Assembly (NCBI GenBank): GCA_964030475.1
Contig: CAXIPT010000001.1
Span: forward strand, 24,573,448 to 24,637,447
Length of the DNA stretch: 64,000 nucleotides
Reading direction: 5' to 3'
Source: Tethya wilhelma
Taxonomy: Eukaryota; Porifera; Demospongiae; Tethyida; Tethyidae
Made by a program: the position numbers and the translations under genes. The notes beneath the pieces were generated by a model. The model searched no databases and was not told the origin of the DNA. It saw only the letters and a list, made by a program, of their open reading frames with translations. The stretch's first letter is position 1, and each line of letters opens with the position of its first letter. This document shows positions 387-58,301 of the stretch, piece by piece.

Positions 387-464
387 CTTGGCTTCAGAGT
401 GTTTCTCTGTGTGCTCTTCAAGACGAGCTGTCTTCTCAGCAATGGTAGCAGCACACGTCTCAAG
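387..464 (-). CDS. SMC2: SMC2 exon, returning coiled-coil arm (last exon in window)
   Basis: A 78-base phase-0 exon starting [17 protein letters not shown], bounded by TTTCAG and GTGAGA. It continues directly from the exon at 2600-2773, whose end ...ESQEQQ plus LETCAATI matches the KQQLEAVNEAI segment of animal SMC2. It is short, so the call rests on phase and position. Confidence 0.72.
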
Positions 465-3400
465 CTGAAAGAGAGAAGAATGGATGGTCATGTTAGTAGT
501 ACTATGAGACGTATGTACACAAAAAATGGATATACTGAACATTACTGCTTAATGTATTTTGCTCCATAAACTATAACTTATAGTTTATAGAGCAGAGTGT
601 ATGCAAATACTAGGCAATGTTTATACTTGTGTGAGATTTAGAAGTAGGTTGCTGTTAGGATGCATGAAGCTTGCTTGTTCTAAGGCACACCTCTTTCACA
701 AAACTGATAACAAGGGTAGTATGTGTGTTACACTACAGTTACACTACTATCAAATCTCCCATCCAAATACAGTGTACGGGTGTACTTGGACTCACTGTTG
801 AAAAACTAATTGTACTACACAATGCCTTATTCTGCCAAGTATGATCGTCACCATTCTATACTTATCAATAACAAAGCAACTGGAGATCACAGCTGAATGA
901 ATTAGTGAAGAAACAATGTTGCTTTGTCTTGTCATTTTGTGCTCTCTCTTACAGCTTGGTCAGCCTCAGAGCCAGTGTACTAGAGAGGTGAAATCACTGA
1001 AGGAACAGCTACAAGCAGAGCTGAGAGAAGCTGTAAGAGATGCCATCAACACTAGCCTCACCAGAGAAGACATTGTAGAACTCCTTGAAGACAAAGCCAC
1101 AAAGAAAGATGTCTTCAAACTCAAAGACGAGTTCTCTGCAGGAACTAACTTCATGAAGGAAAACCAGAATTCAACGATTGAAGGTATTCGTCGTTTCATT
1201 CATAACGTAACTGCCACAAAGGAAGACATCCAGGCACTTAGAGAGAAAGTGGCCAAGGAAAACCAACTTGTGACTCGCACGCTGTTGGTCGATCAGAGTG
1301 TAAAGAGAAATGAACTCGTTGATATACTGGACGAGAAAGCTACCAAGAAGGGTGTTCGTAAAAGGGCTGATGAAGTGGTCGAAACTCTCAATGTTAGCGT
1401 TGCAACTGGAAACAAACATCTTATGGAAACTCTCCATGAGATTGTTGAAATGCAAGAAGGAATTAAAAATGCTACCACAAAAATTGGTCTTGATTTCTCC
1501 TCAGCACAGACATGTGTAACGAGAGCAGAACTGGCCAGTGAAATACAATCCCTCACACAACTTGTAACCAACAATACAGAAATGTTGCAAGAACTTGTCG
1601 GGAAACAAGAAGCACAGGGAACATACAACAATCCTGCCTCCTCTTGTAAGAAGATTCCACGAGGAAATCCATCTGGGTACTACTGGATTCAGTCTTTGAC
1701 CAGTTCAAAGACTCCAGTGAAACAGCTCTACTGCGATGTGGAAAGAGGGTGGATGAGAATCACAAACCTTGATATGACCGACTCTAATCAGCAATGTCCA
1801 ATAGGATTTAGACTTGTATCCTCTCCACGTCGTTCGTGTGGTGTGCCTCAACGGGGATGTACATCAATCACATATTCGGTCCATGGTGTAGTATATTCAA
1901 AAGTGTGTGGAAGAGTGACTGGCTACCAAAAAGGATCCCCAGATGGATTTGTTGCAGGTCGTACTATTGACAGTGGCTATGTCGATGGCGTAAGTCTCAC
2001 TTATGGTTCATCACCAAGGCAACACATCTGGACGTTTGTAAATGCTCTTCTTGATAGAGGGAGAAATTGTGCATGTTTTCATCCAGATCATCAAACCAAA
2101 CCATATGTTCCATTGTTTGTTGGAAATGACTACTTTTGTGAGACTGGAAATCATGATAACTTTGACCTTGATCGGTTCTATCATGAAGACCCACTCTGGG
2201 ATGGACAAGGATGTGGTCCTCAAAGCACGTGTTGTAGTTTCAATAACCCTCCATGGTTCTGTAAGCAACTACCACAACCAACTAGAGAGGACATTGAGCT
2301 GAGGTTGTGTAAGGATGAAAGCCATGCTAATGAAGACATTACTCTTGAAGCTATAGAATTGTATGTAGAGTGAACAGAACAGAACCTTCCAATAAATAGC
2401 TAGAGTTTAATGGTATCCATTGTTTGAGCTGATTGCCACTTTTGTGTCAACTAATGCTACCAGTAATGTTATGAGTGTTTGTCATAATTATCACTATGTA
2501 CAATAACTGTGCTTTTGAACATTTATCATTATCGGTCCATGATGACTACAAAAGAAAATTTCCACAAAATTGTCTAAAACAACCCCCCAAACACTCTACC
2601 TGTTGTTCTTGGCTCTCCAAGGCCTTCTCCAGCTCCTCCACTTCCAGTTTGAGTGTCTGCATCTCTTGTTCTTTCACCTTTGCCTCCTTCACCACACTCT
2701 CAGCATCCTTCTTGGCTTTGGCTACTCCTTCTTCAGCTGCCTTCAGCTCTCTCTCGTGGTGGGACTTGGAGTCCTACAAGAGAGACACATCACATCACAT
2801 CACATATTAGTACTGCTATACCTGCAGTATACTTTATAGCCTTGTTTCCAGGCTCCCTCTCTGGAAATAAAATGGAACTCTATCTGGCTAGACCATCGGC
2901 ATGATGTAGAATTCACGTTCAAGTTGTATGTTAATATTGATAATTATAGACTCACAGTAACACTTAAAATATCAAAACTCATACCCAAGCTCTCTCCTTT
3001 GACCTTTCACTCACGTACAGAAAGGAAGGGGAGAGCCTGGGAATGAGGCTATGACATTTATGTAACTTTACATCACAATCCCACATGAATCTCAGGATGA
3101 GTATATATATTATCTATGGGCAAGGCTAGCATGAGTGTACTACAATGTTAGTTCAATGTCTTGTCATATATTACTCACTAGCTACCTGATGCGCATTGAC
3201 AATAATACTATGTGAGTTAGTGTACCTTCATTTTCTGTTGGACATCGTCAAGTTGTGCTCTGGCATTCTTCTCAGTCTGTTGGGCTTGTTTCAACACATC
3301 CTTCTGTTGAGCTATAACATCAAGAAAATAAACAAAAATTTGACATTAATGTGAGGCATATGTAGGGAATTTTTGAGATCTAGCTTGGATTTGAGTGACC

Positions 3401-6400
3401 TAGCTGGGTTCATAGATATTTGTTTTTGCTTTTTGCATGTCCCTAATCTAAGTGTACATGAACCCCAGCTACATTTCAAAATTTTTTTCAAAGAACTTTT
3501 GCATCTTTTGTGAGTATATCATATGGTATGCATGTAGCTCACATGCTAATCACATGACAGTCACCTGATGTATCACATGACTTACTGATGTTGTCTCTGA
3601 GTTGCTGGAGGTGTGTCAGCTGCTGGTGGTGAGTGCTCTGCTCCATCCTGGTCTTGATCATCTCCATCTCATGGACTTTACCATCACGCTGGTCCTTCAA
3701 ATGACGATACCTGAGAGAATATCATGCAATCAACATAAGCTATGTTTATACTAGCTTGGCTAGGAAGAACTTAGTCACAGTAAAAAAAAAATGTTTTCTA
3801 CCAAATTCTATTTGTGGAAATAAAGTACAAAAATCTCTGTGATGAGTGATTGATTTCATACCAATTCTGATTCTGCTGACCACAGTATATTGAGGGTTGT
3901 TACAACCATATTGAGGCACAGAAATGGCAAGTAATGAATTGTTTTTTCATCTTTTCTCTCACTTACTTGGCAGCGACGCTCTTCACTTGTTCCAGCTGTG
4001 TCATCACCTCCTTCAGCTCCCTCCTCTTCTCCTGGAGTTGGTCCTCGCACTCTCGAAGCTCTTGGAGCTTGGAGAGGATCGAGGAGGTCTTTGGACGAGC
4101 GCCCCCTGTCAGGGTTCCGGAGGGGTCGAACACGTCCCCCGCTAGAGCCACTGAACGGGTCATGACTTGTTTGTCGAAAGTGACCTGGAGAAGTAAAATA
4201 GAAGTAGTAAGAGCAGTGGCAATATTTAATTGTAAAATGTTTACAGGTGTCTCAGTGGATTTTGGAGATAATCTGCTAAAGACTGAAAAAAATATTAATG
4301 TAAGGGAAATTTAAGTTTATACAGATAGTGAAGTATGCAGTTTCGGGAGATATCCTAAAGTAGATGAGCTTGCCACGAGTATAGAATCAAGAGTATTGCT
4401 AGCACACTTATGAACAACAATAACAAAAATGTTTGTATAAATGTGTGTTCACTCTTGTGCAATAGATTGCTAGCTTATGATTCTGACGACCATTACCAGT
4501 TTAGCAATCTGTAGGGTATCACAGATGAAGGTGGAACCAAACACATACGCCATCGCAGGTCGAAGTTCATCATCATAGCCAACCAGAGTCAGTGCTGGAC
4601 GTACTTTGTCCTTACCAACCTACACGTGCGTGTGTATGTATGTGTGTTCTCATGTGTACCTATTATACATACTTGGAAGTACACACAATACTTGTACTTT
4701 GCAGAATATCACACAAAATTTAATGAACATAGGATTAAATTTCTAATTACAAATAGCTAGTATAATAAGCTGTGTCGTGATAATATTATTAGTTTTCTTG
4801 ATTATTCATTGAACACTAACTAATTTCACTATCATACAACAGTGTTCTGCCCAGAAATTTAGAGTGGTGGTTAAAATTAATAATGGTTACAACAACATTG
4901 CATAAAAGTCACTTGACTGAGTGTCAAATAATACAACTAGGCCTTGTTAGTTGCATTACTTGGGGTAATTTGTGCTTTGTGATGGTAATTTTTGTTGAGT
5001 GGTGGTTGGTCTCGACCACTGCTAACCAGTGTGAGCAGAACCCTGATACAACTATTTATGAGAAAATTTAATTATAAGATATGATCTCATCTGACCTCTC
5101 TATTCACTCACCAAGGACTGTGCCTTCTTTACAGTGTCATTGCTGATGCTCCTGGCTGATATTTTGTTGAGAGGGATGATGGTGTAGCGACGTTTGAGCT
5201 TGCCTTTCTGCAACAACTGTTTCCCTGTCTCTTCCGTGTCCACTACCACGTTGAACAGCTGTGAGTACACACATCACCATGACAACAAATGCATGCATGA
5301 ATGAACAAGTAAAAAACATACAGAGTCCCAGTCTCTTTGATAGCTTGTAATGTACAGTAGAGGCTTGTTTGTCAGCTAATGTGTTATTAGTCGGTAAAAC
5401 TATACACCCAGTGCGTATTGTATGGCTAGTAGAAATACTCATGACTATTAGGGTGCAGTGCTTTCAGCAAGAGCTACAAGAATAGAAGTACAAGGTGATA
5501 TAACATAGCTAATGAATGCCTCCATGTCCTACAATTGCTGAGCTTGCCAGATTTTGAGTAGCTAGAGATTAATGGATGATTCCCTTAATTCATATGTATG
5601 TATGTATGTATGTATGTATATTATATGAGCACAGATAGGAGATATTGTACAAGGATACTCAAAGTTTTCAGCACGAGTTGACATTTTATAGTAAACAGTA
5701 AATGAGGAAGTACTATTGATGTGCACTCAAAACACTCGTAAAATCATGTCCGTACATCCTAGATGGCTTATCAGACATTGAGTAGCTAGAAGCTATTGGA
5801 TGACAACCATCATACATATTATGTATGGGCACAACTGGGAGATCTTGTGTACAAGCTAGAAGCATCTATGAATAATCACAGTGATGCCTATATGGCATGT
5901 ACATTTAAAATAGGTTCCAAACAATGAAGGAAATTCCCAATAGAAGACACTAGAAACAGACCAAAATTCCATAACTGGAACTAGAAGACAATAGCAAAGT
6001 AAATTATTGCCATATCATTGTGCGACGCATATGCAAAACCATGACACAGCAAACACACACACGCTCCATTAATCAGAGGTCAAGAAGGTCACATGAATGC
6101 ATTCATGAAGTGAGTATGATCATGAAGTGAGTATGATCATGAAATGTTCATTAGCTAGGGGCTTACCCTGCTCCCAGCTGTGACCTCCAATGCAGTGGCG
6201 GTAGATGTGTCCTTCACTCGAACCAGCTTAGCAACAGGTCCTTTCACTTTGTCTCTGTTGAAGTTTGAAGAGGGAGGTTGATAGTCAAACTGCACCTGTG
6301 GAAACCTTCAGTGTGTGTGTGTGTGTGTATGTGTGAGGTATTTAATGACGGGTAAACATCACTTTGTGAATGCCACAGCAAATGGTGCAGGTATAACTCT

Positions 6401-8292
6401 ATTAGAATTTATTTAATAGTTCCAAAAATAGGTTTAGTGCTTAACACAATGAGTGACTCGAGTTCATTGTACCAGGAACAAGCATCATTAAAATCTTAGT
6501 AGACGAATTATCTTTATTACAAAAATGCATATTATTTGACAGTTTCCATAGATATTATACACTATATAATATCCATGCTGTGTCTCAATGACTCAATCAA
6601 ATACTCAATGGTGTTTCCAGGCAGCCCCCTTTGCAGAGCTGGATGGATGACACACACACCATCATCAGATTCACAGAGATGATTAGATATCTTTGACTTA
6701 CACAGCTACTTGCAAAGGCAAGCAAAATTTCGTGACCCATCTGATGCAATCTTAGCAGTAACTTGGAAATATTATAAAGGAGGAAACTAAATTATTAGGG
6801 AGAACCCCGGGGGAACTCCCCGAAGCAACTGCACACGCATATGCGCATGTGTATATATACGTACGTGTAACGCCCCAAGCAAATTTTATGTGGTCACCAT
6901 CACTCGATCAACTAGCCAGAAAACGGTAACAGTTTACAAACAAGTTTTGCAGACATGAGTTCCATTTCAAGAAGTATCAAAGAAAAGAAGGCCCGTAAGC
7001 GAGCTAGAAACCAGCCGCCGCTCCTACCTGTAGTTCAACCTCCACCTGCTTACATTCACGAGGTCATACAAAAGATGGAGGAGAGCGTCGTGTATGCAAA
7101 CTGTGCCAAAAAAGATCTCAATGATCTGGCAGATAACATAACCAATCCTGAATTGCTCAAGTCATCATATTTCAGTGGGTATCAGGATTACAGAAGTCCA
7201 GTAGCAAGCCCAAGGTCATCGTTCAGGCTCCCGTGTCCTCCTATTGGTTTCCAAGCGATTCCACAAGAAGAGGAGCCAGCCGAAGATGTCCTTCACGTGA
7301 AGGTCCTCATAACGACTCCATCTTCAGGAATACTGAGCTTGAAGGTGCCATCCCTCGAGAGTCAGGGTGCATGCGGCGGTGGAGCGCCAGTTGTCACCAT
7401 GATAGAAGAAAAATATGGCCAACATATCTTGAAAGCTTCTATTGATGTGAATGGACAGATTTTGACATGGGGGCCAGATAGCCTGATTGTACCACAAGGC
7501 AGACCCATCCCTGACACAGGAGGAGCCTCTGCTCCTGCCTTGCTCTCTCTTGGTAGTCTTGAACGCAGGCTTCAAAATCAAGAAGAGCAGGAGACTCGAG
7601 AAGCACATTCATTACAGCCATGTCCTGGTCACAAGTTGGAAGGCCTCCTGAAGTTGGTGAGCATCTATAACAAGAACTACAAGTTTGACCCTAAAGCTCG
7701 GGATTCGCTACGTTTCGTCTTAGATGCTCTCAAAGCATTAGGCTATCAAAATCTCCCGCCTTTCCTTACAAAGAGATACAGCGAATATCTGAGTGCACTG
7801 AAGCAAAAGAAAAGTAAGGATCTTCCTTCAAGCTTCAGAGACCATGCTTCGCTAGAGCACTATCTTCACCAAGGTGCAAACTTTGTAAAAGCAAAAAAGA
7901 GTAAGTTTGACGTCGAACTTCTGTTAAATCACTACGTGGAATTTCACTGGAAAGAAAAGAGTCAAGCGAGAGAGCCAGGAAAGTGGTTATGCCAAAAATA
8001 TCATAAAGAGCAATGTTTGATGGAAATCCTGGAAAGTGAAATCACACCCGAAAAACTTCTACTGAACGAGTTCAGATAACAATAATTTATGACAAGATTT
8101 TGTGTTCATTTTGTGTATATGTGTGTGTGTGTGTGTGATCAGAAATTCTATGTGTTTACAACTTTGTGGTCTGTGGTCCACTGTATTCTATCATTCATTG
8201 TGGTGAGTGTGGCTATTGTTGTTTGTGAGTACTTGTCTGTACACAAGCAGTTGTAGGGTTGTGTACATGACTTTTTTTGTGTTATATGTGTG

Positions 8293-8329
<37 letters not shown>

Positions 8330-11300
8330 GTGTGTTTGATGTTTATTGTGACTCAATGCAATGCACTGTAGTTCTGTCTTACGTCAAATCATTCACTGTT
8401 TCAAAACTGAATCCAAATAACATTAGTGACCTTGTATATGCAGGAGTATTGTCCTAAAATCATTTGCTTTGACAAACGCTTTAATGAAATTAGGTAACAA
8501 TTTGGCGAGTTACTGACCTGTAATAGTCCAGAAGTTAGTGGGCTTTAATTTGGGCTTTTTGGTTCATCATTTGACTCACGGTCAGTTGATGATCCCCAGT
8601 GGGTAGATAATATACAGTGACTATAATGCATCGTGAACTGTAGCCTTTTCAATTGTCACACAACTTCATGGTGTATTACAGAAACATGAAGTGAATCGGG
8701 TTTAAGAGTGTGCAATCTCTTTATGCATGTTCGATTCCACTCTTAGAGGTATACTCTTGTTTATTTGGCCAAAAGTGTGTATAGCTGTATAATATGGGAT
8801 GTGCACACAGACAATGGGTACAATGAACTGCTCAGTGGAGCTTGTTTGGAGAATCAACACTGAAACCACAGCACACTCCATTATAAAGAAGGTGGACACA
8901 TTACTACTGACAGGAACTGGTCAAACAGGCTTCAGGTCTTCCCCCCAAACCACATGGTGTGTAAAGCATAGAGCCTTTAGTTCCTGAGTAGTAGTGGTGG
9001 AGATCCTGTACTGACAATGAATATGCCATAGTTGGCCACAGTTAGCAGTAATTAAAGCTATCAGGATTCCCCCTATGACAGGTGGCGTGGGGTGTAGGGT
9101 GTAGGTAATGGAAATTCCAAGGTGGGTCACTTACTTGGCATTACTGGCTTGAGGTTCACTGAAAGTGTATTTAATGACTTATGACTTGACAAAACTTGCA
9201 CATGACCCATTATCCTATTGAGCCTATAGAGGATGTAGTGATAGCCAGTAAGTCAGCCATGTCACACTGAGCTATGATTTCTTCAAATTTGTACATGTGT
9301 GAGAAGGAGCTCATGAGGGCCATAGGCTCCTGCTGTCAGGGTCTTTTCAGAACTCAGGCTACCCATAGTAATATTATTATTCATTCACTGTTACAGGTGA
9401 ATTTTATCCAAGTGCTAGCTTAGTATAGTAAATCACTAGTACTGATTGCCCCCTGCACAAAATATGCCAAAACAGGCTGTCATGCTAAGGGTATTGTATG
9501 AGGCAAATTGCTGGTACACCATTGTCTCTGTTACTGCAGACATTACATCATAGTCTTAGACAGAGTCAATTTGACTGCAATTAGTGCTTCGCTTGCAGGC
9601 CGGCCGGAAATTGGGAGGGAGGGGCTGGGCGCGAAAAAGGAAGGCAAGGGGGTGTACCATCGATCAATTACAAACCGCACCTTGGCCCAAGGTCAATAAA
9701 ATCAATTTGCCAGCAGGGAAGTCCAAGCCTTGTATAAGTATTTTCAGTTGCCAGTGTACGTTCGACATCTCTGCTGACTCGTAATGTCTAAACGTAGTGT
9801 CAATCATCTATCTGCTAACCAGGAGAAGCTTCCCCCAAAGGTTGCCTTCGCTCTGGACAAGCTCAAAAGAGGTGGAAGATACCCTTATTTAGACCACGAC
9901 CAACTCGTTCGAAAGGCCTACAATCTCACTGATCCTGACTACATTCGAGGTGTGTTCAACTACCTCTTCGATTCAGTCGGGAAATTGATGAAGGAGCTAA
10001 CCTGTCAAAACGACCACGAACTGCTACGCACGTTGGAGCTGGAGGAAGCTCACGACAAAGCCAAACATGGNCTACGCACGTTGGAGCTGGAGGAAGCTCA
10101 CGACAAAGCCAAACATGGCGTGGCACAAGCCTGCCACCTACCAATCCGGCTGCTCCTCTCAAAACTCAGGTGGAGCATGCCGACGTTTATAAACAGGTTC
10201 TCCTCGCTACTAAGCCTGGAGTATGGAGCCCTTCACGCCGCTCTACAGGTGGGAGAGATTGTTATAGAATGGGGTAGGGGAAGCATAGTAGACCCTCGAC
10301 CAGTAGATGATGTCCACATGGCCAATAGAGAGTTCCAAGCACAGATCGACAACCAGGGGCAATGGTTTCAGAGAGCTCACCAGTTTACTCGTGACATGAG
10401 TTTGGCCGATCGGCAACACAACTCTGAAGAAAAGATGAACGTGCTGACTCAATCTGTGGCCGAGAAGAAACAGTTGATTGAAAACTTGGTTACTGTCATT
10501 GTGGATTACAATGGAACCAAAGAGTACAGCGTATTCAAGTGCAATTGTCAACACTTTGTGCATGATGCGCTTACGGCACTAAGGATTGAGAACACCCCCC
10601 AATTCAGTGGACCACTCCAAGACTACTTCAAGCACCTCAAAATCGGAGCCCAATCCATTCCACGTGATCTTGACACACACGAGAAACTCGACAAGTATGT
10701 GACGGAGAATCAAGACAAGCTCTCCCAACACGACATGGAGTATCTCCTCTGCCAGTACTTCAAGCATCACATGACCGAGATGGAGAAAGATCTCAACGAT
10801 TGGGCGTGTACGCTTGAAACCTGTCAAGCAGGTTTGCTCGAGCAACGGATCAAAGAGGAGACACTCGTGTTTAACCGTTTCAAGAAGAAGAAAGACAAGA
10901 GAGAGCAGTTTGTGTTGCGCCATGCTGATCAAAAGGTGCTTGATGCTTTAGAGGAGGAGGAAGGCACGTCGGATGAAGACAGAAGTGGGAGTGGCAGCAG
11001 CGATGAAGATATTGAACTTCCCCAAGAGGTGAGTATATCAGTGTATCTATTGTATAAGTGTTTTTTTTTTCTAGAGGGAAAATTCAATTGTCTTTTTCAC
11101 TGTGGCAATCAGCAAAATTGTTTCCCTCTAGAAAAAAAAAAGACCTATACAATAGATGTGCTGATATGAGGCGATAAATACACACATCAAATGAGGTGAT
11201 GAATACACATATCACACCAACATACAAGAAGCTATGATGGTGTGATTTGTGCATTTATCGCCTCATTTGAAGACTCTCCCCTTCATCAGAAATGGAAAGG

Positions 11301-14300
11301 GGGAGACTCAAATGCTGCAAGATTCTGCTGACTTTGCCACATGTGCCTGAGTTGTGATGTACAACATGTTTAGCATGTGGTCACTGTCCGGTGCTTGTGG
11401 TGGTGTCCCCAAAACTGTGTGTGTATCGTGACACAATAGTAATTGTAGTATGCATTGTACTTTAGCTGTCCTTCATTCAATAGTTAACAGTACATCTACT
11501 CTCTTTCCTCCTATATTAAGCTTGCTGGTCGTATCTGTCTACAAAAACAACGCTCCCTTCTCAACAAATTCTCAGGCTATCGAGAAAACGTCGCTACCAA
11601 ACTAAAAAACCATCCATTCTACAGTCGTAAACTCGAAGCGAAACAGATCGATTTTCTTTCCGAACGAGAAAAGTTTCGAGAGCAGTACATAAGCGATGTC
11701 ATTGATGGTCCAAGTGAGAAAGTTGTACTTCAGATAAGTTTTGACAGTGAGGCAGAGGTCGCTCAAACCATCCCGAGGGAAGAAGCTAAAAGACGACAGA
11801 AGCAACGTTTCGACAAACTCTTCGAGTTTCCCATCAAGCTGTGTCTGTATGTATCACAAGGCGATGCCCAAACGCTAAAATTTAGACAAATCGAAAATGC
11901 TCCTATGAAAGCGGGCCTCATTGTCGGTGAGTATTTTTATGAATGGGATAAAACTGGTCTTGTATTTCCAACGAAAGCATCAGATGTGTTAAGCAGTCGA
12001 CCTACACTTCAAGTTGGCTTGCTGAAGCAAAGTGAGTGGTTCACCTACGTCAGCAAACAAAAGCAAGAAGTTGACTCTGCTATCGAGTGTCTCGATCACG
12101 GCTCGCTCATAACACAAGCATTCGAAATCACGGCGAGAAAAGACCAAGTGATGTTTGCTCTAATAGACCAAGTCATGGACTACAACAGACACTATGAGTA
12201 TCATCACAGAAACTGCAATGATCGGTTCTTTGTGCTCGAAGCTATGAAAGCACTTGGAATCAAGACACCATTTTCGATCCTATCCACTCTAAAGCGTCAC
12301 ATGAAGGGCCTCCGACAACCAAGGAAGGTTAAGAGACTCGATTCACACCCAGAATTAGACTCCAGATTGTTAGAACTCGATAGAAACACGGGTCTGGCAA
12401 ATCTTTCCAAGCAAGAGGTGATTTTCTTGGCTTCACATCACTTTATGTTCCATCTTAAGGACTGGATGGACCAAAACTGCCCCGATTCTTGGACTTGTAC
12501 ACTAGACACATGCCAGTTAACTTTTCTACAGAGAATCTATGATGCAATGTGACATAATATTATTTTTTTTATGTTTGTGCTGTGATCATTTTAATAATTT
12601 TATGACATTGTGTGTACATGAACTTGTATGTGTGTGTGTATTATTATGACATAATATGTGTGCATGACGTTGTATGATGTGCTCTAATGGTTACTCACAA
12701 ATGTTGAGTTAAATTGAACAATATAAATAATACATACATAAACAATGAAAGCTCGGCTCAGAATCACGGAGCATGCCACAGACCACAAACTCATCCAACA
12801 CATGCTATCCCACAGACAATCTACTCTATGTTCCTATGTAGGCAGACATGGGAACAGCAGGTTACACATAACACAAAAGTTCTCCTATGTAAACTTTAAA
12901 CTAGTATTGGTACGATTTGTCCCTTCAACAAAGCTCTTAGTTCGTTCATCCTACAACCTTGTCTCCCACACGCGTCGCCATCACCATCGTGAAACTGATG
13001 GCAGTACACAAACAAAAGATACTCTAAATCGACACCGGGAAGCTGTTCCAGTCTTCCTTGAGCTTGTAAGTTCTCCACGACAGTGTCAATGTTTTCGTGA
13101 TAAGGATATGCTGCTTGGACTGTGAGTTCTCTTTGCATCAGTTGCTGTGCGTGTCTGTTCAACTTTGTAGCATACTCAGAGTGTTGCTTTATCCCAAGAG
13201 ATTTCATACAGTCGTTCACAAATCTGTGCGAATTCCGTGCAATCTTGTCAAAGTAGAAATACCGGTTGTACCTTGATATAGTTTTAATGACATTCTCAAT
13301 AGCTTGAGCTTTCGTCGTAACAGATTCAAGAATAAATTCCACCTCTTCTGCTCCTGTGTTGAGAAAAGTCGGCTCATCGGTTGCACAAGTAGGAGCTTGC
13401 ACACCAATTTGGTAATGCACGTCAGAATGGAACACTATACGATCATCATGTTTCACAGGGCATTCTAGATTGATATAAGAAGGACAAATGAGACTGTTTT
13501 CACACCATTCTAATATGCTTTAAAACACGTCCCCAACTGCAATAGCCACACTCACAGTACCAGGTGCACCGGCTGCATTCACCGTAAAGTGATCACGATC
13601 ACAAAACAGAAAGAGTGTTATTGGAAGCCTTGTGACTTGCTCACGAAGTTCTTGTTGTTCTCGAATCTTCATTTGTGGAGCATCGCTCAGAGATGAAAGG
13701 CTTGAATTTGCTTTAGTGCTCTGTTCATCTAGTATAGTCTTATCGACTACCTCACCCACAGCATCATCCACCAGGTGACTGAAAAATGTCATCAACTCTT
13801 CTGGTTTAGTGAGACGTTGCGTCTCTTCTTGCAATTTGTTGTTTGCATCGGCAAAACCTTCAAGTTTTTTGAGCTTATCTTTGACTTGCAATAGAGCTCC
13901 ACTGTCTGAAGTCCCAAGAGCTCTTGCACTAGCAGTAACTGAGGCACCGAGCTCACTAGCAGACAGGAGAGACCTGCGACTGCTCACCTTCACAATGGAT
14001 GGTCCTTTAGACATACTCACAATAGCTACCACTTGAGAAGCACTTGAGCAATACAATACACAGTAAGTGTGTATATTGTATATATCCAATTGAGAAATTC
14101 TTTGATAACAGCTTGCTAAGACAAGAAAGCTTTTCAAGAAGTGGGCACAGAATAGATGATTTGCTCTTTATCAGTTCAACTAAAATGGGCAGTACTGTGG
14201 TTGAATGTGATGCACATGTGACATATATGCAGGATAGATTCCCACTGACCATGCAGTGTAGATAATAGCAATGAATATCTCAAGAATGTACATAGAGATA

Positions 14301-26210: not shown

Positions 26211-26265
<55 letters not shown>

Positions 26266-27764: not shown

Positions 27765-27815
<51 letters not shown>

Positions 27816-33800: not shown

Positions 33801-34376
33801 TTCCATCGTACCCATTGTCTGTGTGCACATCCCATATTATACAGCTATACACACTTTTGGCCAAACAAACATGAGTACACTCATTGTTGTATCCACCAGC
33901 ATTACTGTATGGTGTACAGAGTCCTACTGACACATGTATGCATGCAGTCATTGGTAAAATTTTAAGAGTGGAATTGAACGTGCTAAAAGAGTGCACACTC
34001 TTAAACCTGATTCACTTCATGTTTCTGTAATACACCATGAAGTTGTGTGACAATTGAAAAGGCTACAGTTCATGATGCATTATGGTCAATATCTATCCAC
34101 TGAGGATCATCAACTGACCATGAGTCAAATGATGAACCAAAAATCCCAAATTTAAAGCCCATGCGCTTCTGAACTTTTAAATGTCAATATATAGCTCTCC
34201 AAATTGCTACCTAATTTCATTAAAGCTTTTGTCAAAGCAAATGATTTTAGAAGTATATATACTCCTATGTATAAAAGGTCACTAATGTTATTCGAATTCA
34301 ATTTAATAGTTTTGAAACAGTGAGTGATTTGACGTAAGACGGAACTACAGTACATTGCATTGAGTCACAAAAAACA

Positions 34377-34428
<52 letters not shown>

Positions 34429-36046: not shown

Positions 36047-36092
<46 letters not shown>

Positions 36093-45000: not shown

Positions 45001-48000
45001 GTTGATTGGCTTACCTTGACTATGCATTTACATGTACTTGGTAGACATCAGAACAGGTCCGAGGATCATGAAATAAATCTAGCTGTATATGCATGACTTA
45101 CCTCTTGCTAAATAAATGCATGTCAGTACGAGCCGCGTTTGAACTAAGCTAAACCTGTCAGATGATATATACACATACGAGGTTTTCACCATTCACCATG
45201 ACCTACTCTTCTTGAGAGTAGCTTATGGTCCATATAAAAACACCCATTGTACACATGTTACATATGCATGTACTCTTCTACATGACAATTTAATTGACAT
45301 GCATATGTGCACACTTGATTATACATTTTCCCTTGTGTGCATTTTCTAACAAGTTAATTGTCAGAAAACACTAAAGGAAGGCAAATGACTAAAATGAATT
45401 CTGATTTTATCAGTATGCTAAAGACACGTACAGACATGTGCAGTGCTTGCTGGTCTGTTCCTGTCAACTCTAAATTCAGTTGAACTCTCACTCATATATA
45501 AAAATCTACACAAATGTTATGCCACACTCGTGTACACATACATACGTACATAAGGATGCATAACCACATGAATAATCAGCAAATCACCAAATTAAAAATT
45601 ACCAAACACAGGCACGTGTATATAAATGATGTGGCATGCAGAATCAAATCAGCACAATCGTAGTCACTCACCTTGATTCTAGAGTATCAACTTTGTCTTT
45701 GAGTTTGGCAACATCAGAAGATAGCTCCTCCCTGAATAGGTAGGTATTGGTAACTTAAAAGACTGTTTCAAAATTGAGTGGCTTAAAGAGAAATTATCAT
45801 AAAAAAGGTGCCAAGTAAATGCAAATGAACCCAACGACCTAAAACAATTACACAAATTAATGCCCATGGATGCACTAACAAAGCTTGCCACAATACAGAT
45901 AGACTAGTTGCATGTGATATAATAGTGACAGCAAAATTGGGGTAATTTAACTTGTGATCAACTACTGGCAACTAACCTTCTTGCAGTGAGTTCCTCTTCA
46001 AGTCCATCTTGATAGTTGAGCTTCTTCATTGATTGCTACAAAGGTCAAAGTAGAGTGATTCATATTAAAACATATACCACTACTTGTTCCCAGGCTCTCT
46101 CCCCAATGAAAAACAGGAAGGGAGAGAGCCTGCCTGCATGTGTGCATATGGTACATAAGGTCATGTGAATGATCTTCACTGTAGAAGAATCAGTATAATG
46201 CTGTAGCAGAGAAACTATAATACAAACTCTCCTTCCATTGTCTCTTTATGGGCAACATCACACACATGCATGACTTCACTGGGAAAGAGCCTGGGAACGA
46301 GGCTATGAAATTGCAGAAGTTGCAACAGGCTTGATTCTATACACATAGTTAGTCGCTTGGCAACTACTCGCACGTACGTATGTTTTACTATGAAGCAGCA
46401 GCCACAGTCAACTACGCATACAGTACACAATTTAGTTTACTATATCAGGTGATGGATTGCAGACTGAAACCGTGGTGTCTCCTTAATTCATTCTTTAACA
46501 GGACAACATCACCTCTATGTTTGTGAGTACAAAAAGTGAAAGTCTATTAAAGATATTGTTAGGTGTACAATGCAGACATCTGATGCAGGCGGCTGTCTCC
46601 ATGGGAATGTGACGCCATGCATGCATCATCTATACTAGCTGTATTGTCATTGTGTATATATAAGCTGCTATAGGCCGTGGTGCTTTAGTAGATCAGCAAC
46701 TTGAAAGCAGCAGAAGACTGAGCTCATCGATCTTATAATTCCATATTTTCCTGCCAGCGTTATCTGAAGAAGTAAAGTCAACATGAAACTCGGCCCTCAG
46801 ACGATTGTAGTAATCATTGTGTTGATTGCTACATCACACATCATGAAGTCAGAAGGTATAGAGTAAAACCAATATTATAGGCCTGAATTTGCACTGATGC
46901 TGAATTTGCATTGGTTGTATTATTCCTCTTCAGCTGGCTGCGATATTTGGGAAAAGGCTGCATGTGCTGCTGCTATTGCTGCTTGTGCAGTTTCATGTAT
47001 TGATCCACTGGATGGAATATGTGAGGCCTGTTTTGCTGCTTTGGGTGCATCCGGTTGTTACCAATGCTTGTTCTCGGAAAGTGTATTTAACAACTTGGTT
47101 GCTTTTAAAGGTAATTGAGTGCATTCATAAGCATGCATGTGAACAGTATACCGTCAGAGCTATTTCAAATCTGTTTGCAGGAGAGTCTGGTCAAACGTGC
47201 AACAGCCCAGACTGGCTAGCATGCACTGCTAAGGTTGGTCGCTGTGAAGCTGTTTGTGGACCTAAACAATTTGGATCCCCGCAGTGCACAGCTTGCTTGG
47301 GTGATACTTATGTGAATTGTGTCTACTGCATTCCAGAGATTGGAGCTGCAAAAGTTAACGGTTCAGCACTTCGGGCCATTCACCGTAAGCATATAGTATA
47401 AATACAGTGTAGTCATGCATGCATGTACATGCCTTTTGCCAATTATAAACACTTGCCTTCATGAGCAGGAAATTGGGAGGGTTCCTTTACATTTAGGATT
47501 ATTTGTGAAGAAAACACATACCATTGATTATATTCGTGTATATATACCTCATACATGCTACAGTTCAAGGCTGCAGTCCATTCGATTGGGTGAAATGTGG
47601 AGCTAAAGTTGCAGAGTGCTCAGCCACTTGTGTGGAAAATGGCATACCCTCTTCTCAGTGTATCAACTGCTTTGGAAGTCTTTATAATCAGTGCAAATCA
47701 TGTATTGGCCTTCACAATGCAGTTCTGACTCATGCAACAATGCCAAAAGGTATAAAATGCGTGACGATTGTGTGCGTCATGCATGACATTGTATAGTATA
47801 TGTGCATGAATTGAATTGAATGTGTATTTGATTACAAACATCTGCATGTAAATCTGGAGGCATAAAAATGCCAGTAAAAGTTTAAATAAATTATTAATAT
47901 CCATATAATTATAGGGTGTGGAGTTGATAAGTGGATCAAATGTGCAGCGGAAGTGGACCAGTGTAGCGTTCCGTGCTCTGAATACGGTTTTGTGTCACGC

Positions 48001-48825
48001 CAATGTTCCAGTTGCTTTGGCTCGTCTATTGGATGTCTTGACTGTATCACGGAAGACGATAAGAAACATAAGCCAACTCTGCGTTGAGGTACACGATCAT
48101 AATCACGTACTAAAAACCATGCATGCATGCATACATAATTTATCAGTTATTATGTTTCTGTAGGAAAAGCAGGATTTATTAGGAAGAGATTCCTGTAATT
48201 TGGACTATAATTATATTAGCTAACATTTGTGTGAATTGAACTTGTATATAGCTACCTAAAGTATATAGTAAACATTGTTATTAAAACTGTTATAGGCCTA
48301 TACCTGTGACTCTTACAGTGACTTAATTGATCTGTATAAGTGTGTGTTAAATTTTTGCCACTTTAACCAATTCGGTAAAGATTGCCATACGTTTTAAAAT
48401 TTTCACGCGTTTAATTTTTGCCACTTGTGTTCGTGGGGAAAAATTTTTAACAGCAAAAATTTCCCAATCTACAAGACAAAGGGTGAATATCACACTCAAT
48501 GTAAGTAGTAACATATGGGTCAGTTATCATGGTGATGTATATCCCACAGATGTTTTCAAAGTGAATGCATGTACATTTTTAATGAAGGACCACAACCACA
48601 ATAAGGGTAACCTCTTTATCAGGATGGTGTCATCAATATGCATGTATTTATGCATGATTGTGAGTCAACAGGAAATACATTGTGAGCTAGGTGTACCATG
48701 TGGACATCTGGTGCAACCAAGGCTTTCTGGCAATGTCTATATAATTGAAGGAACTATATAAAGACCAATTAAACTCTATACACCCCATCCACATGTAATT
48801 GTCACTGCATGTCATGCAGCATAAA

Positions 48826-48881
<56 letters not shown>

Positions 48882-51177
48882 CACATACTGCCAATCAATA
48901 TCAAGGCAAAAGCATCTTGCCACATGTAAATAAAATCATAAAAAAAGACGTATTGTAGTGCATTAGGGAATTGGCAGTGCTGTAAAAAGTTATAAAACAA
49001 GATATTTCTCAATATCAGAACATGTATGCATGACTACTTCTTTTTCGATCTCAACCCCTTATCCTGTTATATATGGTTCAGATTCGTGGCAATTGATCAA
49101 TCTGTACAATCATGTATGCTCAATATGGCCCAAACCAGAATGGGTCAAATTGATGTAATTTGTATGGGCAGGCATTAATGCAGCAGCAGTAAGCGTATAG
49201 GCTACTGCGTACGAAAATACAACAGACCACGCAGCTAGTTAATGACCTTTGCATGGACTCTGATGGTCAAACTCTCCACAAAAATGGACAATACTCTTCT
49301 GTTCCACATGCATTTGACAGCAGTGAGCAAGATTGGTTTGATAAGTGGTACTTGTGCAGGACCGCAGTTGTAACCTGTGGTCAAGTTAAGACATGCAGGT
49401 GTTACCATAACAATGCCATTATATGAGGGGTTGAGTAAAGTGGGTGTCCCCATAACAATACCATTATATAAGGGTTGTTATCATGCAGGCTCTTCTCCCT
49501 TTAACCTTCCAGAGCCTGGCAACAAGGCTATGGTAAGATTGGGCTGATAAAGTAACGTGGAGGTGGATGGTATATACAACTTGCAGGATACTATTTTTTT
49601 TTACTATATACTGTTTTGTTACCAAAAATTAAATGCGTGACAATTTGAAGATGGGTACCACGTCTGAATACTAGCTATGTGTACTTACGTATATTGCATG
49701 TTTGTCAAGAGAAAATATCACAAACAAAACAAAATAAACATCATTTAATGGTCATAGAATGTCATAAAACATCACACATTTTATTTTTAGTAACAAAACA
49801 GCATTTATAGTGACTAAGTTCCTTTAAGTGTCTCTTGGGATCAACTGCAAATAGTGGTAGTTGAGTGTTACCAAAACAATGCTCTTATATTCATGAGCTA
49901 GGGGTCAAATTAAGTGGGTGTTATATGGTAACTGTGATTGCTATTATATGAAGGGTCCAAGTTAAGTGGGTGTCTCCCCAACAACCATGAATTCCATTAT
50001 ATGAGGTGTTGCTGTTACCATGCAGGCTTTTCTCCCTTTAACCTTCCGGTGCCTGGCAACAAGGCTATGGTAAGATATGGCTGATAAAGTATAGTATGGA
50101 GGTGGCTGGTATAACTTGAATGATATTCATGATTTTTAAGTGTCCCTCCATATCAACTGCAAATAGTGGTAGTTATGTGGGCGTTACTATAACAATTAAT
50201 GCTCTTAAATGAGGGGTCAAGTTTAGTAGGTGTTAACATGACAATGCTATTAAACAAGGGGTCGTTACCATGCAGGCTCTTCACCCCTTTAACCTCGAGG
50301 AAGCTAGTGCATTGTTAGTTCACACCATAGATAACAGCTGGCCAGCCATTTTACCCTGCACCAGCTAGCCCATCATGCATGGGCAGGTCATTGCCTATTT
50401 AAGCTTGAGATCCTGTAGACCGTGACACTTGATCAGTAAAGCACTGAACTTAAAGAAGCTGCAGATTGAACTTTTAAAGATTTCTACCGACTATATCCAA
50501 TATTTGAAACAAGAAAAGGCAAAATGAAACTCTTTCAGCTGATTGCAGTAGTCATTGCTACATCACTTGTCATAGACTCAGCAGGTATTGTATAGAATTG
50601 TTAATGTTATAGTAAAACTATTTGGTATTGCATTGATGCATGCAAACTTAATAATTATATTCTTTTTTAGCTGCAAAATGCAGTATTTGGAAGAAGATTG
50701 AGTGTGGTGCTGCGCTTGCTGCTTGTGCAGTGGCCTGTATTGATCCACTGGATGGAATATGTGAGGCCTGTTTTTCTGGTCTGGGTGCAACTGATTGTTT
50801 CAGTTGTGTGTTCTCGGAGACGGAACTTAACAATATGATTGGTTTTAAAGGTATATTTGCTTGCATGCAAGAATATATTTGGCTTGTGAATTGACCTATT
50901 GTACTTGCAGGAGAGTCTGGTCAAACATGTAACAGCTCTGAATGGCTTTCGTGTAATGCTAGGATGGTTCGCTGTGAAGCTGTTTGTGAGGCTAATAAGT
51001 TTGCATCCCACCAGTGTGTGACTTGCTTGGGTGATGAGTATGTGGATTGCGTCTACTGCGTTCCAGAGATTGGAGCTTTACAATCTAACTGTTCAGAACT
51101 TTGGGACGTTCACCGTGAGTATAAACTTTGCAAATTGCTATTAATAATACAGACACGTTATATTTAATTATCATGTA

Positions 51178-51218
<41 letters not shown>

Positions 51219-54200
51219 TACATGTACAGTTGGAACCTGCAGTGCATGGGACTGGTTGAAATGTGCAGCTAAAGTCGCAACATGTGCAGGCACTTGCTAC
51301 GATCATGGTATTACATCTCAAGAGTGCATGGGCTGTTTTGGATCTCTTTATGATCAGTGCAAAAAATGTGTTGGCCTTCAAAATGCAGTTGTTCAAAATG
51401 CAGTATTATTAAAAGGTATACAGTGTTTATGATACATTATATATACAAGGTGTTGTGCATGCATGCATGTATATGTAAGTACTGCATGAATCAAATTGAA
51501 TGTGTATAATATATATACCTTTGATGCATCTGCATGGCATGTCATGCATGAACGAAGAAACTGATGGTAAAAGGTTTAAGACTGCATGTCTATAGCACTG
51601 CATTTTTATATCTAATTATTATAGGGTGCGGACCTACTCAGTGGGTTAGATGTGCAGCGGAAGTGGCCAAGTGTAGCCTTCAATGTTTTGAATACGGTTT
51701 TACGTCAGCCCAATGTACCAGCTGCCTTGGTCCTGCTATTGACTGTCTCAGTTGTATTACACCAGAAGAAATGCAATTGTCTGCCAAGTCAACCCTCCGT
51801 TCAGGTATATACATGATAATTATGTAGAATAACCATGCTATCAGCTAAAAATATTTCTGCAGGCAAAGCAGGATCCAGGAGGGAACTGTAACATGGACTA
51901 TACTGAGCTAACTTTATAGTCTGAATCGAAGTTGTATAATAGAGACACTTAATACTAGATGAAACTGTAGTGTGTTGTAGGCCTTTATATAGTTGTGAGT
52001 CGTATTGAGTATAGCTTTAAACTTGAAATAACAAGTTGGTATGTTACCCTTGCTCTAATTTGATATTATAATATTAATTTGAACACAATACGTACATTGG
52101 GGCGAGCATGAGCAAGTGTCACAGTAGCGTGCATGATAAATGACTTGTAATATATCCAATTGTACAGCCGACCTAGGCCACATGCATGTCTATAGATGAA
52201 AAATAACAAAGCTGTTTGCTTACCATGAGTCTACAAAAATTTGCAAGGCCTGACAGTGTATGGTTTTAAAAATCTGATTCAGAAATGATCTTTTAGTTCT
52301 AGGCTGCAGTCCATTGGATGGGGTGAAAATGTGGAGCTAAAGTTGCGAACAGCCAATTGCATGCAAATGGAATAACCTCTTCTCAGTGTATCAACTATGG
52401 CTACTTTGGAGGGCTTTATGATCAGTGTAAGTCATGTATTGGCCTTCACAAATGGATAAAACTCTTTGTTCCACATTAGCATGACAGCAGTGAGCAAGAT
52501 TGGTTAGATAAATGGTATACTTGTGCAGGACCACAGTTGTAACCTGTGGTCAAGTTAAGATGGGTGTTACCATAACAATGCTAATATATCAGGGGTCGAG
52601 TTGTAATAAGTGGATGTCACCATAACAATTCTATTGTATACTTCTTGGGATCAACTGTAGGCCCAGATAAATTCTGCTGGCAATTTTTGAGCAAAATAGA
52701 TAGCTGAAACCAATGAGCATTTTTCTGGAAAAATGGGCATTATCCAGCATCTCATACAGATAAAAGATCATTATTCTAGCATCTGAACTGAGTGGCAGGG
52801 TATTTATTTGAGCAATTTGACTATGTCAGAGGGCACTGTTGGAACTGTCTAGTTTGTCTATTTTACCTCCTATTGTTTTTTAATTACTTATTTTTCATCA
52901 AAAAAACTCATCATTCACAGAATCGCATTAGAATAATTGAAGCAAAAAATAATAGGTATAACTCTATAGTCTGAATCAAATTTGTATAGAGACATTTATT
53001 ACTAGATTGAAACTGTATAGTGTGTTCTAGGTCTTTAGTTGTGAGTCGTATTGAGTAGATTTTAAGTTTACACCATCTTGCATCAAATTTGTATAGCATT
53101 TATTACTAGATTGAAACTATTGAGTGTTATAGGCTTTTATAGCTGTGACTTGTACTGAGTAGATTTAAACTTGCATGAAATAAAGATGTTGGTGTGTTAA
53201 TTGCCTTGCACTAATTTGATTGAACACGATACACTTGATTTATTGGGGTGAGCATAAGCAAGCACCACAGTAGCGTGCATGGTAAATGACTTGTGCAACA
53301 ACATAATGTAATCGTATAGCCAACCTAAGCGACAAGTCTATATAAAAATTACAAAGCTGTTTGCTTGCTGTATACCTATCTACTAAAATTTGCAAGGCCT
53401 GCATGGTTTTGAAAAATCTGATCCAGAAATGACTGAGCAGCTGGGAACTGAAGTAAGATGAGTAACAGGCTGCCTGGCACATCCTCAGTGTTGTACAGTA
53501 GCTAAATGGTTTTTCATAGCTGTATGTGTGTATACAACTTTAGTAAATGGAGGACTGCTTCATTTACAATATATGTCCAAGTTTTACAGTCATGTGCATT
53601 TCCTAATCAAAACTTGGGGTTGCTAAGCAACCACCCACACATACATTACGCGAATGGTTTATCTTGTGAGAGTCAAACAATCATATTGTGTTGTAGGTAA
53701 AGGGTCGTCAAAGTGAAAAATGGGATAGCTTGCTAGACTAACAGATATGGTGCACAAAGTAAAACCTCAATCTTTGTGATATGCTAATGTCCATAGAATG
53801 TACTGGGGAAAGCATGAGTGAGCACCAAGAACCATCAGTAGTGGGGTGAACGACTGGCGTATCCATGCATATATAGATACGATGTAATTGTTGATCAATC
53901 ACTTTAATTCTGTGTATTCTATTCTAATGGTACACATGACTTCACTAGAAAAGAGCCTGGGAACCGGAGGCTATGAAATTGTAAAAGTTGCAAACTGCAG
54001 GCTTGATACAATACACAGGATTAGTTGCTTGGCAACTACTCATATGTGCATACGTTTTCTCATGAAGCACCGTCCACAATCAGCTACAAATAGTCCCTTA
54101 TAAGCATAGAGAGCATAACTTTTCTTAGAAGCTACTATTATCAGATTGCGATCACAAACCAAAAATTTGTATTTTTAATGCATTCTTTCACAGGACAATA

Positions 54201-57200
54201 CCGTCATCATTGCAATTGTGAGTACAAGAAGTGAAAGTGCACTGTTGCAAACTGCAGATGTTTGGCGCTGCAGGGCTGCATCTTCATGGCATGTGAATCC
54301 TCTAACTTTACTTAGGTTACTTACTATTATCATGTACATAGTTACACATTTTCTTGTGAAGCAGCGTCCACAGTCAACTATACAAATAACCCCATATATG
54401 TATAGAGTGCGTAACTTTTCTTGGAGGCTACTATTATCAGGTCATGAGTCACAAACCAAAAAATGTGTTCATTCTTTCAAAGTACAATATTGTCATCATT
54501 CTGCGTTACTGAACAGTTGTGAGTACAAGATGTGAAAGTGTATTGTTAGGTGCACAATGAAGAGGTCTGGCGCCACAGAGCTGTCTCCATGCGAATGTGG
54601 CCACTGGCGCCATGCCTGCATGCGCTAGCTGTATTGCACCATTGGGTATTTAAGCTAGCTGCTGTAGGCTGTGACACTTAGAACCTGATCAGCAAAGCAG
54701 CCAAAAACTGAGCTAAAACATCCCAATTTCAAATTTTCTTACCAACTTTATCTGAAGAAGAAAAGTCAACATGAAACTCTCTCCTCAGCTGATTGTAGTT
54801 ATCATTGGGCTGATTGCTACATCACACGTGATGAAGTCGGAAGGTACATATAATGTATAGCAAAACCTATCTATAAATAGGCCAGTATTTGCACTGAATT
54901 AAGCAAGCATTCAAACATGTATTATTTCCCTTCAGCTGGCTGCAGTGTTTGGGAGAAGATTAAGTGTGCTGCTGCTATTGCTGCTTGTGCAGCTTCATGT
55001 ATTGATCCAGCAGATGGAATATGCGAGGAATGTTTTGATGCTTTTGGTTTAGCTGATTGCATCAATTGCTTGATATCGGAAAGAGCATTTAACGAATTTG
55101 TTACTCATGCAACATTACCAGAAGGTATATAATGTTGATAATTTTTGAGTTGATGTACTTCATTTTTTTTTGGACCTAATTAGCTCTTGTAAGTTACTAC
55201 ATACCTACATGCATGCCTGTGTTACTTCATCCACATATTAGCCACTGAGTGATTGCATGCATGCTTATATTGACTCATGAGTCAAATCACTAACCATACA
55301 TAGTGAAATTCGAACTTGCAATTGACTACTGAAAACAATATGTGCTAAATTCAGAGACTTGCCTTGTTCTATTGCTTTTTACAGCACTGTACTTGTACTT
55401 AAACTGCTTATTTTACAGGGTGTGGAGTTGATAAGTGGAGTGAATGTTCAGCAGAAGTGGGCCAATGTAGCGATACATGCTCTAAATATGGTTTTGAGTC
55501 AGACCAATGCACTGGCTGCCTGGGTTCTGATGCTGACTGCCTCAACTGTATCACAGATGACGACAGGAAAAATATTAAGCCAACCCATGGCCTGCGTTGA
55601 GGTATATGTGATACAATTATGGAGAATTACGATGTTTTTCAGCTATTATATTTCTGCAGGAAAAGCTTGATGCAAGAAGATACTATACTGTAATGTGGAC
55701 TACAGTATATATTACTAACTTTTGTGTGAATTGAATTTGTAGCTACTGTAGTAGAGATTGATTATTAGTTTGAAACTGTTATAGGCCTTTAGCTGTGACT
55801 CGTAGTGATTTAAAGTTTGTATTGGATTTGATAGCATAATATTACTGGGTGAAAAAATTGAAAATATATTTTGTAATGTGTCAATGACTCATGTACAATT
55901 GGGGCGAGCATATCTATCATGGTTCAGCAACAATCATAGCCATGTGTTTAATATATTACGACAAAAAAGGATCCAATCAGCGACTGCTGAATTTGCTAAG
56001 CAGTGTAGTAAAGTACATAAGCCGGCAGATTGACAACTTAGGTTAAATTATAAGACTTGGACATAAAAAATAATTAGTCATGCGCCAAAGTTGAGATTAT
56101 GCATGGCTTGTTTCTATGGTATCGTCCATTCCCACACTGCTTATTTTTAAGAAATTTAATCCCCACTCTTATCAAAACTTTCATCGCTAAGCAACTACTC
56201 ACATGTATACAGTATTACGTGTCGGAAATGTATAATTAAGAGGAGTTCCCCCTAAGAACCCATTCATTGTTCCATAGCAATGGTGGGTGTGGTCACCAGA
56301 AATGAGGCATTGTCTCAAAAATTCTTGGCTCTAAATAGAGCTCAGCCTTCCTCCCATACAAACTAAGAATTCTGGATGAAACCATGACAGATATGGTACA
56401 CAAACCTCAATCTTGGTGATCTCTTTTTGGAAGCTCTCACACTGGGTCTTGTCTCTGCTGTAAGAGGTCTCACCGTCTTTACAAGCCTTCTCCTTCTCTT
56501 TCAGCTCTGACTGGGCATTCTTGAGTCTCATCTCAGCTTGCTTCATTTCAGAGACAGCATTACTGATGGCATTCTCACAAGCTAAAGATGGTAGGAGCAA
56601 AAAATTATCGGTTCAATATGCACACACAATGAGGGAGAAAAGAGATGGAAGGCTGAACCAAGATAATCTGTCTTAAACAAAGGCACTGTGCTGCAAGAGT
56701 ACTTCATTATGAAGTCATATTACTACGTATGTTTATGCATGTGTCAATGGCTTAAACATTGTGATAAGCACTGTATCCCCCCTCCCAAGTATATGCAGTC
56801 ACCAGTCACCATGTCAATAGAGGTATACAGTGTGTAAACATAAAAATGTCCCACCTATTCTCCCACCCCCAATACAAATGCAAAAGGGTTTAGGAATCAG
56901 ACTATGTTCAGTGTGTGAGTATTGCTCACCAATTTTCTGAGCTGCTAGGGTTTCTTCCTGCCCATCAGCACCACTAGACAGTCCAGCTGTGACAGCTTGA
57001 AAGTGTTGCTGGGCGGTCAACACAGCCTGTTCCTTGGCTTTGCTCCTCTCTTGAAGCTCACAGTAAGCACCTTGACGTGAGTCCACTTCAGCTTTCTTGC
57101 TCTCAAAGAGAGTTCTGTCTTCTTCAAAGGCCTTCAGAAGAGCAGTCTTGTTCTTCTTCTCAGATACTAACAGATCCTTACTGTTCTTCAGTGTAGCTTC

Positions 57201-57420
57201 AGCTACGGCCAAAGCCTAAGGAAAGGTGAAGGATTATTCCCAAAATTGACAATTGTGTACACACCTGATCATTACACATAAAAAAACAAGTACACTTTAC
57301 ACAGTAGAGGAGATGCTACAGGCTATTGAGATAGGGAGGTTAAGTACTTACATTGGTGTGATCTTACCTTTGCCGATTCATCGACTTTCTTTTCAAACTC
57401 GAGAATGGGGCCTTGTGATT

Positions 57421-57454
<34 letters not shown>

Positions 57455-58301: not shown

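Follow-up and report, generated by a model that had tools for sequence, protein, structure and literature searches.

In the sponge Tethya wilhelma, the condensin gene SMC2 is probably a host gene, a single minus-strand transcription unit that exceeds 60 kb and houses independent genes that have settled in its large introns. The analysis covers a window of 64,000 nucleotides (contig CAXIPT010000001.1, positions 24,573,448 to 24,637,447); all coordinates are those of the window, and negative numbers lie to its left. One SMC2 intron holds most of the loci that we detected for one gene family in this genome, and two further introns contain genes of unrelated families.

The SMC2 host gene

To define the host gene we aligned human SMC2, matched to PDB 9f5w_A, to the window plus the DNA to its left with tblastn and with a spliced-alignment program of our own (DP). 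This gave 16 minus-strand exons in the window, all in phase (Table 1). The spliced alignment spans residues 177-1185 and is reliable to residue 1172; 517 of the 1006 aligned residues match human SMC2 exactly. In window coordinates the gene extends from 58295 down to about -2163, and thus continues approximately 2.2 kb to the left of the window, where there are seven segments (locus L009), six of them reliable. The seventh, a doubtful leftmost segment of 39 nt (-2814 to -2852) that supplies the last 13 aligned residues, is preceded by an AG that lacks a pyrimidine tract, and we place no weight on it. From residue 177 on, the hinge and coiled-coil arms align to SMC2 along their length, and SMC2 is the only significant PDB match of the exon 5 frame. 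The C-terminal ABC signature ELSGGQRS and the Walker B motif YILDEVDAALD are present in the L009 exons. Exon 22 is 75-99% identical to its homologs (best 120 of 2414 listed) and, among the matches listed, Ephydatia muelleri is one of the close ones at 90%.

Table 1. Features of the SMC2 locus in the window (DP, spliced-alignment program)
Feature	Coordinates	Strand	Remarks
SMC2 exon 16 of window	387-501	-	acceptor 501 or nearer 464; donor after 387
Single-exon secreted-type gene	901-2373	+	in 2.1-kb SMC2 intron (502-2594)
SMC2 exon 15	2595-2773	-	tblastn + DP; 3' end maybe few bases earlier
SMC2 exon 14	3226-3311	-	DP
SMC2 exon 13	3586-3710	-	tblastn + DP
SMC2 exon 12	3967-4184	-	hinge end; linkage-search query; tblastn + DP
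SMC2 exon 11	4497-4619	-	hinge; tblastn + DP
SMC2 exon 10	5112-5258	-	hinge; tblastn + DP
SMC2 exon 9	6167-6305	-	3' border of 39.4-kb intron; tblastn + DP
SMC2 intron, 39,366 bp	6306-45671	-	LRAT/PPPDE-like array; DP
Putative LRAT/PPPDE-like gene	6916-8079	+	His and Cys positions lost
Putative LRAT/PPPDE-like gene	9778-11169	+	N at 10071 within, 47-bp repeat on both sides
Putative LRAT/PPPDE-like gene	11488-12552	+	His lost
Family member	12896-14167	-	in-frame stop; likely pseudogene
Putative LRAT/PPPDE-like gene	14654-15790	+	
Putative LRAT/PPPDE-like gene	16187-17356	+	
Putative LRAT/PPPDE-like gene	17827-18978	+	
Putative LRAT/PPPDE-like gene	19265-20410	+	
Family member	20657-21899	-	frame-shifted pieces; likely pseudogene
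Putative LRAT/PPPDE-like gene	22183-23634	-	His lost; tree partner P0066 of 2,009,892-bp contig
Putative LRAT/PPPDE-like gene	25044-26093	-	His and NC motif lost
Putative LRAT/PPPDE-like gene	26278-27555	-	N at 26298 near 3' end
Putative LRAT/PPPDE-like gene	27847-29340	-	filamin repeat in front; His and NC motif lost
Family member, 3' part	36293-36785	+	cut by N at 36292; 98% identical to 40748-41239
Putative LRAT/PPPDE-like gene	38305-39624	-	nearest relative P0001 (67%); query for family, structure and genome searches
Putative LRAT/PPPDE-like gene	40073-41242	+	
Putative LRAT/PPPDE-like gene	43049-44242	+	
SMC2 exon 8, 60 nt	45672-45731	-	DP
SMC2 exon 7, 59 nt	45977-46035	-	tblastn + DP
SMC2 intron, 10,370 bp	46036-56405	-	gap-free; three Cys-rich genes; DP
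Cys-rich gene A	46867-48084	+	four Cys-rich exon-like frames; outer frame ends
Cys-rich gene B	50655-51824	+	four Cys-rich exon-like frames; outer frame ends
Cys-rich gene C	54881-55597	+	two Cys-rich exon-like frames; outer frame ends
SMC2 exon 6	56406-56581	-	tblastn + DP
SMC2 exon 5	56930-57202	-	tblastn + DP + PDB match
SMC2 exon 4	57352-57421	-	DP
SMC2 exon 3	57504-57644	-	tblastn + DP
SMC2 exon 2	57873-58010	-	tblastn + DP
First SMC2 exon present	58233-58300	-	aligned from residue 177; cut by N at 58301; tblastn + DP

The SMC2 introns are GT-AG and in phase, with a GC donor at exon 387-501 as the sole exception in the DP alignment. The sequence directly after 387 is the donor GTGAGAAG, with GT, and it replaces the GC donor that DP had given to this exon (near 429). 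Intron sizes range from 82 to 908 bp, apart from three introns of 2,093, 10,370 and 39,366 bp. The alignment has no gap across the 45672|6305 junction, the 56406|46035 junction corresponds to the 10,370-bp intron, and the exon DNA bordering the 39.4-kb intron on either side occurs once in the assembly. A sequence-only reading of this DNA had described one SMC2 gene with 16 in-phase exons on the minus strand, introns of 39.4 and 10.4 kb with the others mostly below 1 kb, two exons of about 60 bases separating the arrays in these introns, and a donor after 387. The alignment recovers the exons and introns, and the sequence itself shows the donor.

SMC2 stops at a single N at position 58301, and residues 1-176, including Walker A, are absent beyond it. 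They were not found in the remaining 5.7 kb of the window or the 60 kb beyond. Searching the entire assembly with the protein sequence of these residues gave two weak matches, both on contig C9, the better one 31% identical. Two motif patterns for the N-terminus had no match genome-wide in a search without a positive control, in which an intron inside the motif would hide it. Absence of these residues from the assembly is what would be seen if this SMC2 were decaying or split and the real SMC2 were elsewhere. This seems very improbable to us; the 22 exons relied on are stop-free and have usable splice sites, exon 22 reaches 99% identity to listed homologs, and a gap N marks the position of the break. 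We favour an assembly gap as the reason for the missing 5' end, since single Ns behave as unsized gaps (10071 and 36292).

Other SMC_N loci were considered as a second SMC2, namely seven of the 12 other genome matches along with L011 and L012 from the N-terminal protein query. All were rejected because they were at most 56% identical to SMC2 or had no match to it. A run of 1,034 Ns is located at window coordinates 72719-73752 (L010 from base 8719), between TG and CT repeats and approximately 14 kb beyond the 5' break.

Genes inside the SMC2 introns

The 39.4-kb intron contains 17 members of one family, 10 on the plus strand and 7 on the minus strand, and their open reading frames fill half of the intron. 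Fourteen are long single-frame ORFs, two of which, beginning at 9778 and 26278, cross an N. The remaining three are split by a stop (12896-14167), fragmented (20657-21899) or cut by a gap (36293-36785). About 15 genes on both strands had been read from the sequence earlier; the use of both strands holds, and the number is now 17.

From sequence comparisons, the nested family is predicted to carry an LRAT/PPPDE-like (papain-like) domain. The best scores in the window are 24.6 bits for PPPDE (PF05903) and 20.2 bits for LRAT (PF04970), below the curated cut-offs of 29.2 and 24.3, and the scanned members are also under the cut-off for RTE1. Relatives outside the window score higher, with P0003 at 31.9 bits for PPPDE and 27.3 for LRAT, and P0094 at 28.7 for LRAT. 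These profile scans covered 12 of the 17 members (two in part, one as a C-terminal piece), and no Pfam death-fold family matched among them. The label "Death-type" that the family had been given is therefore unsupported. The weak profile matches are accompanied by a His-then-NC order that is common to the LRAT, PPPDE (DeSI) and NlpC/P60-like papain folds; the family is presumably linked to NlpC/P60 folds. Its predicted structure model has a PPPDE1-like core but, unlike LRAT and PPPDE folds, would have extra helical parts before and after this core. Both the putative active-site His and NC are retained in 9 of the 14 long members, and the putative catalytic His is lost in the other 5. One relative of the family, P0088 (738 aa, on a contig of 1,084,963 bp), is fused to a protein kinase domain.

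The nested coding sequences look constrained because dN/dS was 0.14, 0.24, 0.24, 0.38 and 0.47 in five paralog pairs, the highest value coming from a recent pair; a sixth pair was saturated. An AATAAA poly(A) signal within 400 nt was counted in none of the 7 minus-strand and 2 of the 10 plus-strand members, a count that does not separate sense from antisense.

Several other features of the 39.4-kb intron were observed. A direct duplication of about 2 kb with 93% identity (36293-38283 and 40750-42782) is one of the most recent events that we observe in the array, and its left copy begins exactly at the gap N at 36292. An inverted repeat pair of 86-92% identity (8297-8873 and 33755-34419) is found near both ends of the array and could have promoted inversions. 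Two coiled-coil frames on the minus strand, 30449-31012 and 34692-35165, are 63% identical over 115 residues and have no Pfam family above the cut-off; perhaps they are exons of a separate duplicated gene. For the minus-strand open frames at 32290-33243 and 23760-24431, there was no Pfam match above the cut-off and no paralog was found in the window.

The 10.4-kb intron contains three Cys-rich genes, all on the plus strand and all predicted in the sequence-only reading. This family has 18 exon matches genome-wide, 7 of them in this intron, and three further clusters at C1:22.30 Mb, C2:5.44 Mb and C6:4.78 Mb. The gene in the 2.1-kb intron has a signal-peptide-like start, a coiled coil and a C-terminal domain that contains Cys and matches COLFI weakly. 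A genome search with 380 of its 490 residues scored at least 108 family matches, including the gene itself, on many contigs.

Confinement, continuity and linkage of the array

We used three members from different branches of the large family as whole-genome queries, which gave 23, 17 and 16 matches. Combined, these are at least 20 loci, and 17 of them are in the 39.4-kb SMC2 intron. The three loci elsewhere are C4:4858552-4861605 (where two matches separated by 2 kb were treated as a single locus), C1:10081615-10082250 and C1:24469445-24470062, the last of which is about 104 kb to the left of the window. Such searches give minimum counts and could overlook distant members elsewhere. By contrast with 17 of 20 loci in one intron, the family of the gene at 901-2373 is scattered across the genome. 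The proposal that two whole families are nested in SMC2 was overstated, given the Cys-rich clusters and the three large-family loci elsewhere. A pattern search of viral contigs gave 52 matches, none of them a relative of the family. The same type of search in bacterial and archaeal genomes gave 63 matches, with one short match of 21 residues (L019) that was not used.

The 39.4-kb intron is interrupted by five single-N gaps (10071, 23845, 26298, 34430 and 36292), so its true size and middle order depend on scaffolding. The 10.4-kb intron has no such gap. The single Ns behave as unsized gaps. An identical 47-bp sequence is on both sides of the N at 10071, as for two overlapping, unmerged contig ends, whereas the N at 36292 cuts a nested gene and that at 58301 cuts SMC2. 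With five of these gaps in the intron, and sequence missing at such Ns as the two cut genes indicate, pieces of the array from elsewhere might have been placed between two SMC2 halves to produce a false 39.4-kb intron. We consider this very unlikely for several reasons. The gap-free block at 36293-58300 joins eight SMC2 exons with four family members (one partial). The gap-free block from -4449 to 10070, bounded by Ns at -4450 and 10071, contains SMC2 exons together with one member and the beginning of another. Each half of SMC2 therefore adjoins the same array without a gap being crossed. The 47-bp overlap at 10071, the lack of gaps in the 10.4-kb intron, and the linkage of SMC2 and the family on seven other contigs also argue against such an artefact.

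This linkage was assessed by comparing, for base-exact equal size, the longest contig of each protein-database match. The inputs were 98 family matches, 26 matches to exon 12, and the best 120 of 2414 matches to exon 22 (108 with a contig size), a list that includes other animals. With exon 12, 5 of 11 distinct contigs of at least 50 kb also bear the family (195827, 270534, 334548, 1091162 and 2009892 bp). With exon 22, this is true for 2 of 27 such contigs among the matches listed (421249 and 2777284 bp). Under a log-uniform model, equality by chance is expected 0.0002 times for exon 12 and 0.0003 times for exon 22. No listed family member is on 6 of the 11 large exon-12 contigs or 25 of the 27 large exon-22 contigs. 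The two exon lists have no contig of at least 50 kb in common, which indicates that both are incomplete. Three short sizes shared with exon 22 (1540, 1694 and 1896) were dropped as probable coincidences; for exon 12 there were none among 15 short contigs.

In a tree of 41 rows, the member at 22183-23634 pairs with P0066, and those at 38305-39624 and 27847-29340 group with P0001. Both P0066 and P0001 are on the 2,009,892-bp contig, which also bears SMC2 exon 12. The linked contigs fall into about four groups on this tree. Because seven other contigs carry an SMC2 exon together with family members, the linkage looks old, although equal sizes show linkage on contigs rather than nesting.

Possible origin of the nested array and comparison with known systems

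In the host-gene arrangement, SMC2 would be transcribed through the array, the nested genes would be removed as intron, and these genes would have their own putative promoters. The 39.4-kb intron could have been filled as local duplications, tandem and inverted, expanded an old LRAT/PPPDE-like family to about 17 members on the two strands, and a Cys-rich gene in the 10.4-kb intron may have been duplicated to three copies. We infer that any rearrangement moving the array would break an essential gene, and that this keeps the family with SMC2. More tentatively, the SMC2 intron might be an ancient, stable nursery in which members have been born and lost across sponge lineages, the family being trapped since breakage of an essential condensin gene would not be tolerated. 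If this is correct, the expression of members oriented like SMC2 would be coupled to transcription of SMC2 and hence to cell division.

Nesting could instead be kept by co-regulation or a functional relation between host and nested genes, for instance if SMC2 chromatin is open in dividing cells, rather than by the lethality of breaks. The apparent age of the linkage is consistent with this, and coordinate regulation has been proposed for an insect cluster of GMC oxidoreductase genes in Flo-2 (PMC3240667). However, the members here are on both strands (10 and 7), the loss of the putative catalytic His in 5 of 14 suggests divergent roles, and expression of the insect genes nested with TipE is reported to correlate poorly with that of their host (PMC3240667). 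We therefore think co-regulation is unlikely to be what maintains the arrangement.

Nested genes are common. Counts reported are 2432 of 19,578 genes in Aphrocallistes vastus and 3358 in Amphimedon (PMC10282587); in the ctenophore Hormiphora, 1654 hosts contain 2357 nested genes (PMC8527503). In human cells, nested genes are described as able to disturb splicing and polyadenylation of the host (PMC3192792). The SMC2 locus poses a clear question about transcriptional interference: can a cell-cycle gene be read through about 40 kb of sense and antisense genes?

Titles and abstract openings in the literature searched gave no account of this SMC2 arrangement or of the family. Nesting of this type had been called unusual in the sequence-only reading, an interpretation that is supported in part; precedents are known. 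In the GMC/Flo-2 case, as here, a single large intron of a conserved, unrelated gene houses most members of a family, and the cluster is described as kept across insect species (PMC3240667). The host, family and phylum differ, and here the host is a condensin subunit with two further introns occupied. TipE/Teh genes in the last intron of CG18675 form a stable family cluster in a conserved single-copy insect host, for which a structural constraint has been proposed (PMC3240667). That cluster is a handful of genes whose nesting was compared across many insects, whereas for the approximately 17 genes here the comparison across contigs is of linkage only. Sgs4 and four ng genes in a dunce intron of Drosophila are, likewise, several short genes within one unrelated intron (PMC10835880). 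They are a small glue-type set, unlike the larger, enzyme-like family in SMC2, which appears to be under purifying selection.

Intron-nested family clusters are thus already known, and SMC2 is a large and striking, but not unprecedented, addition to them. It is a strong and testable example for the idea that a gene family becomes fixed in position when it resides in an essential gene. The SMC2 locus combines an essential host, the use of both strands, the presence of three unrelated families in three introns, and the unusual confinement of one of these families.
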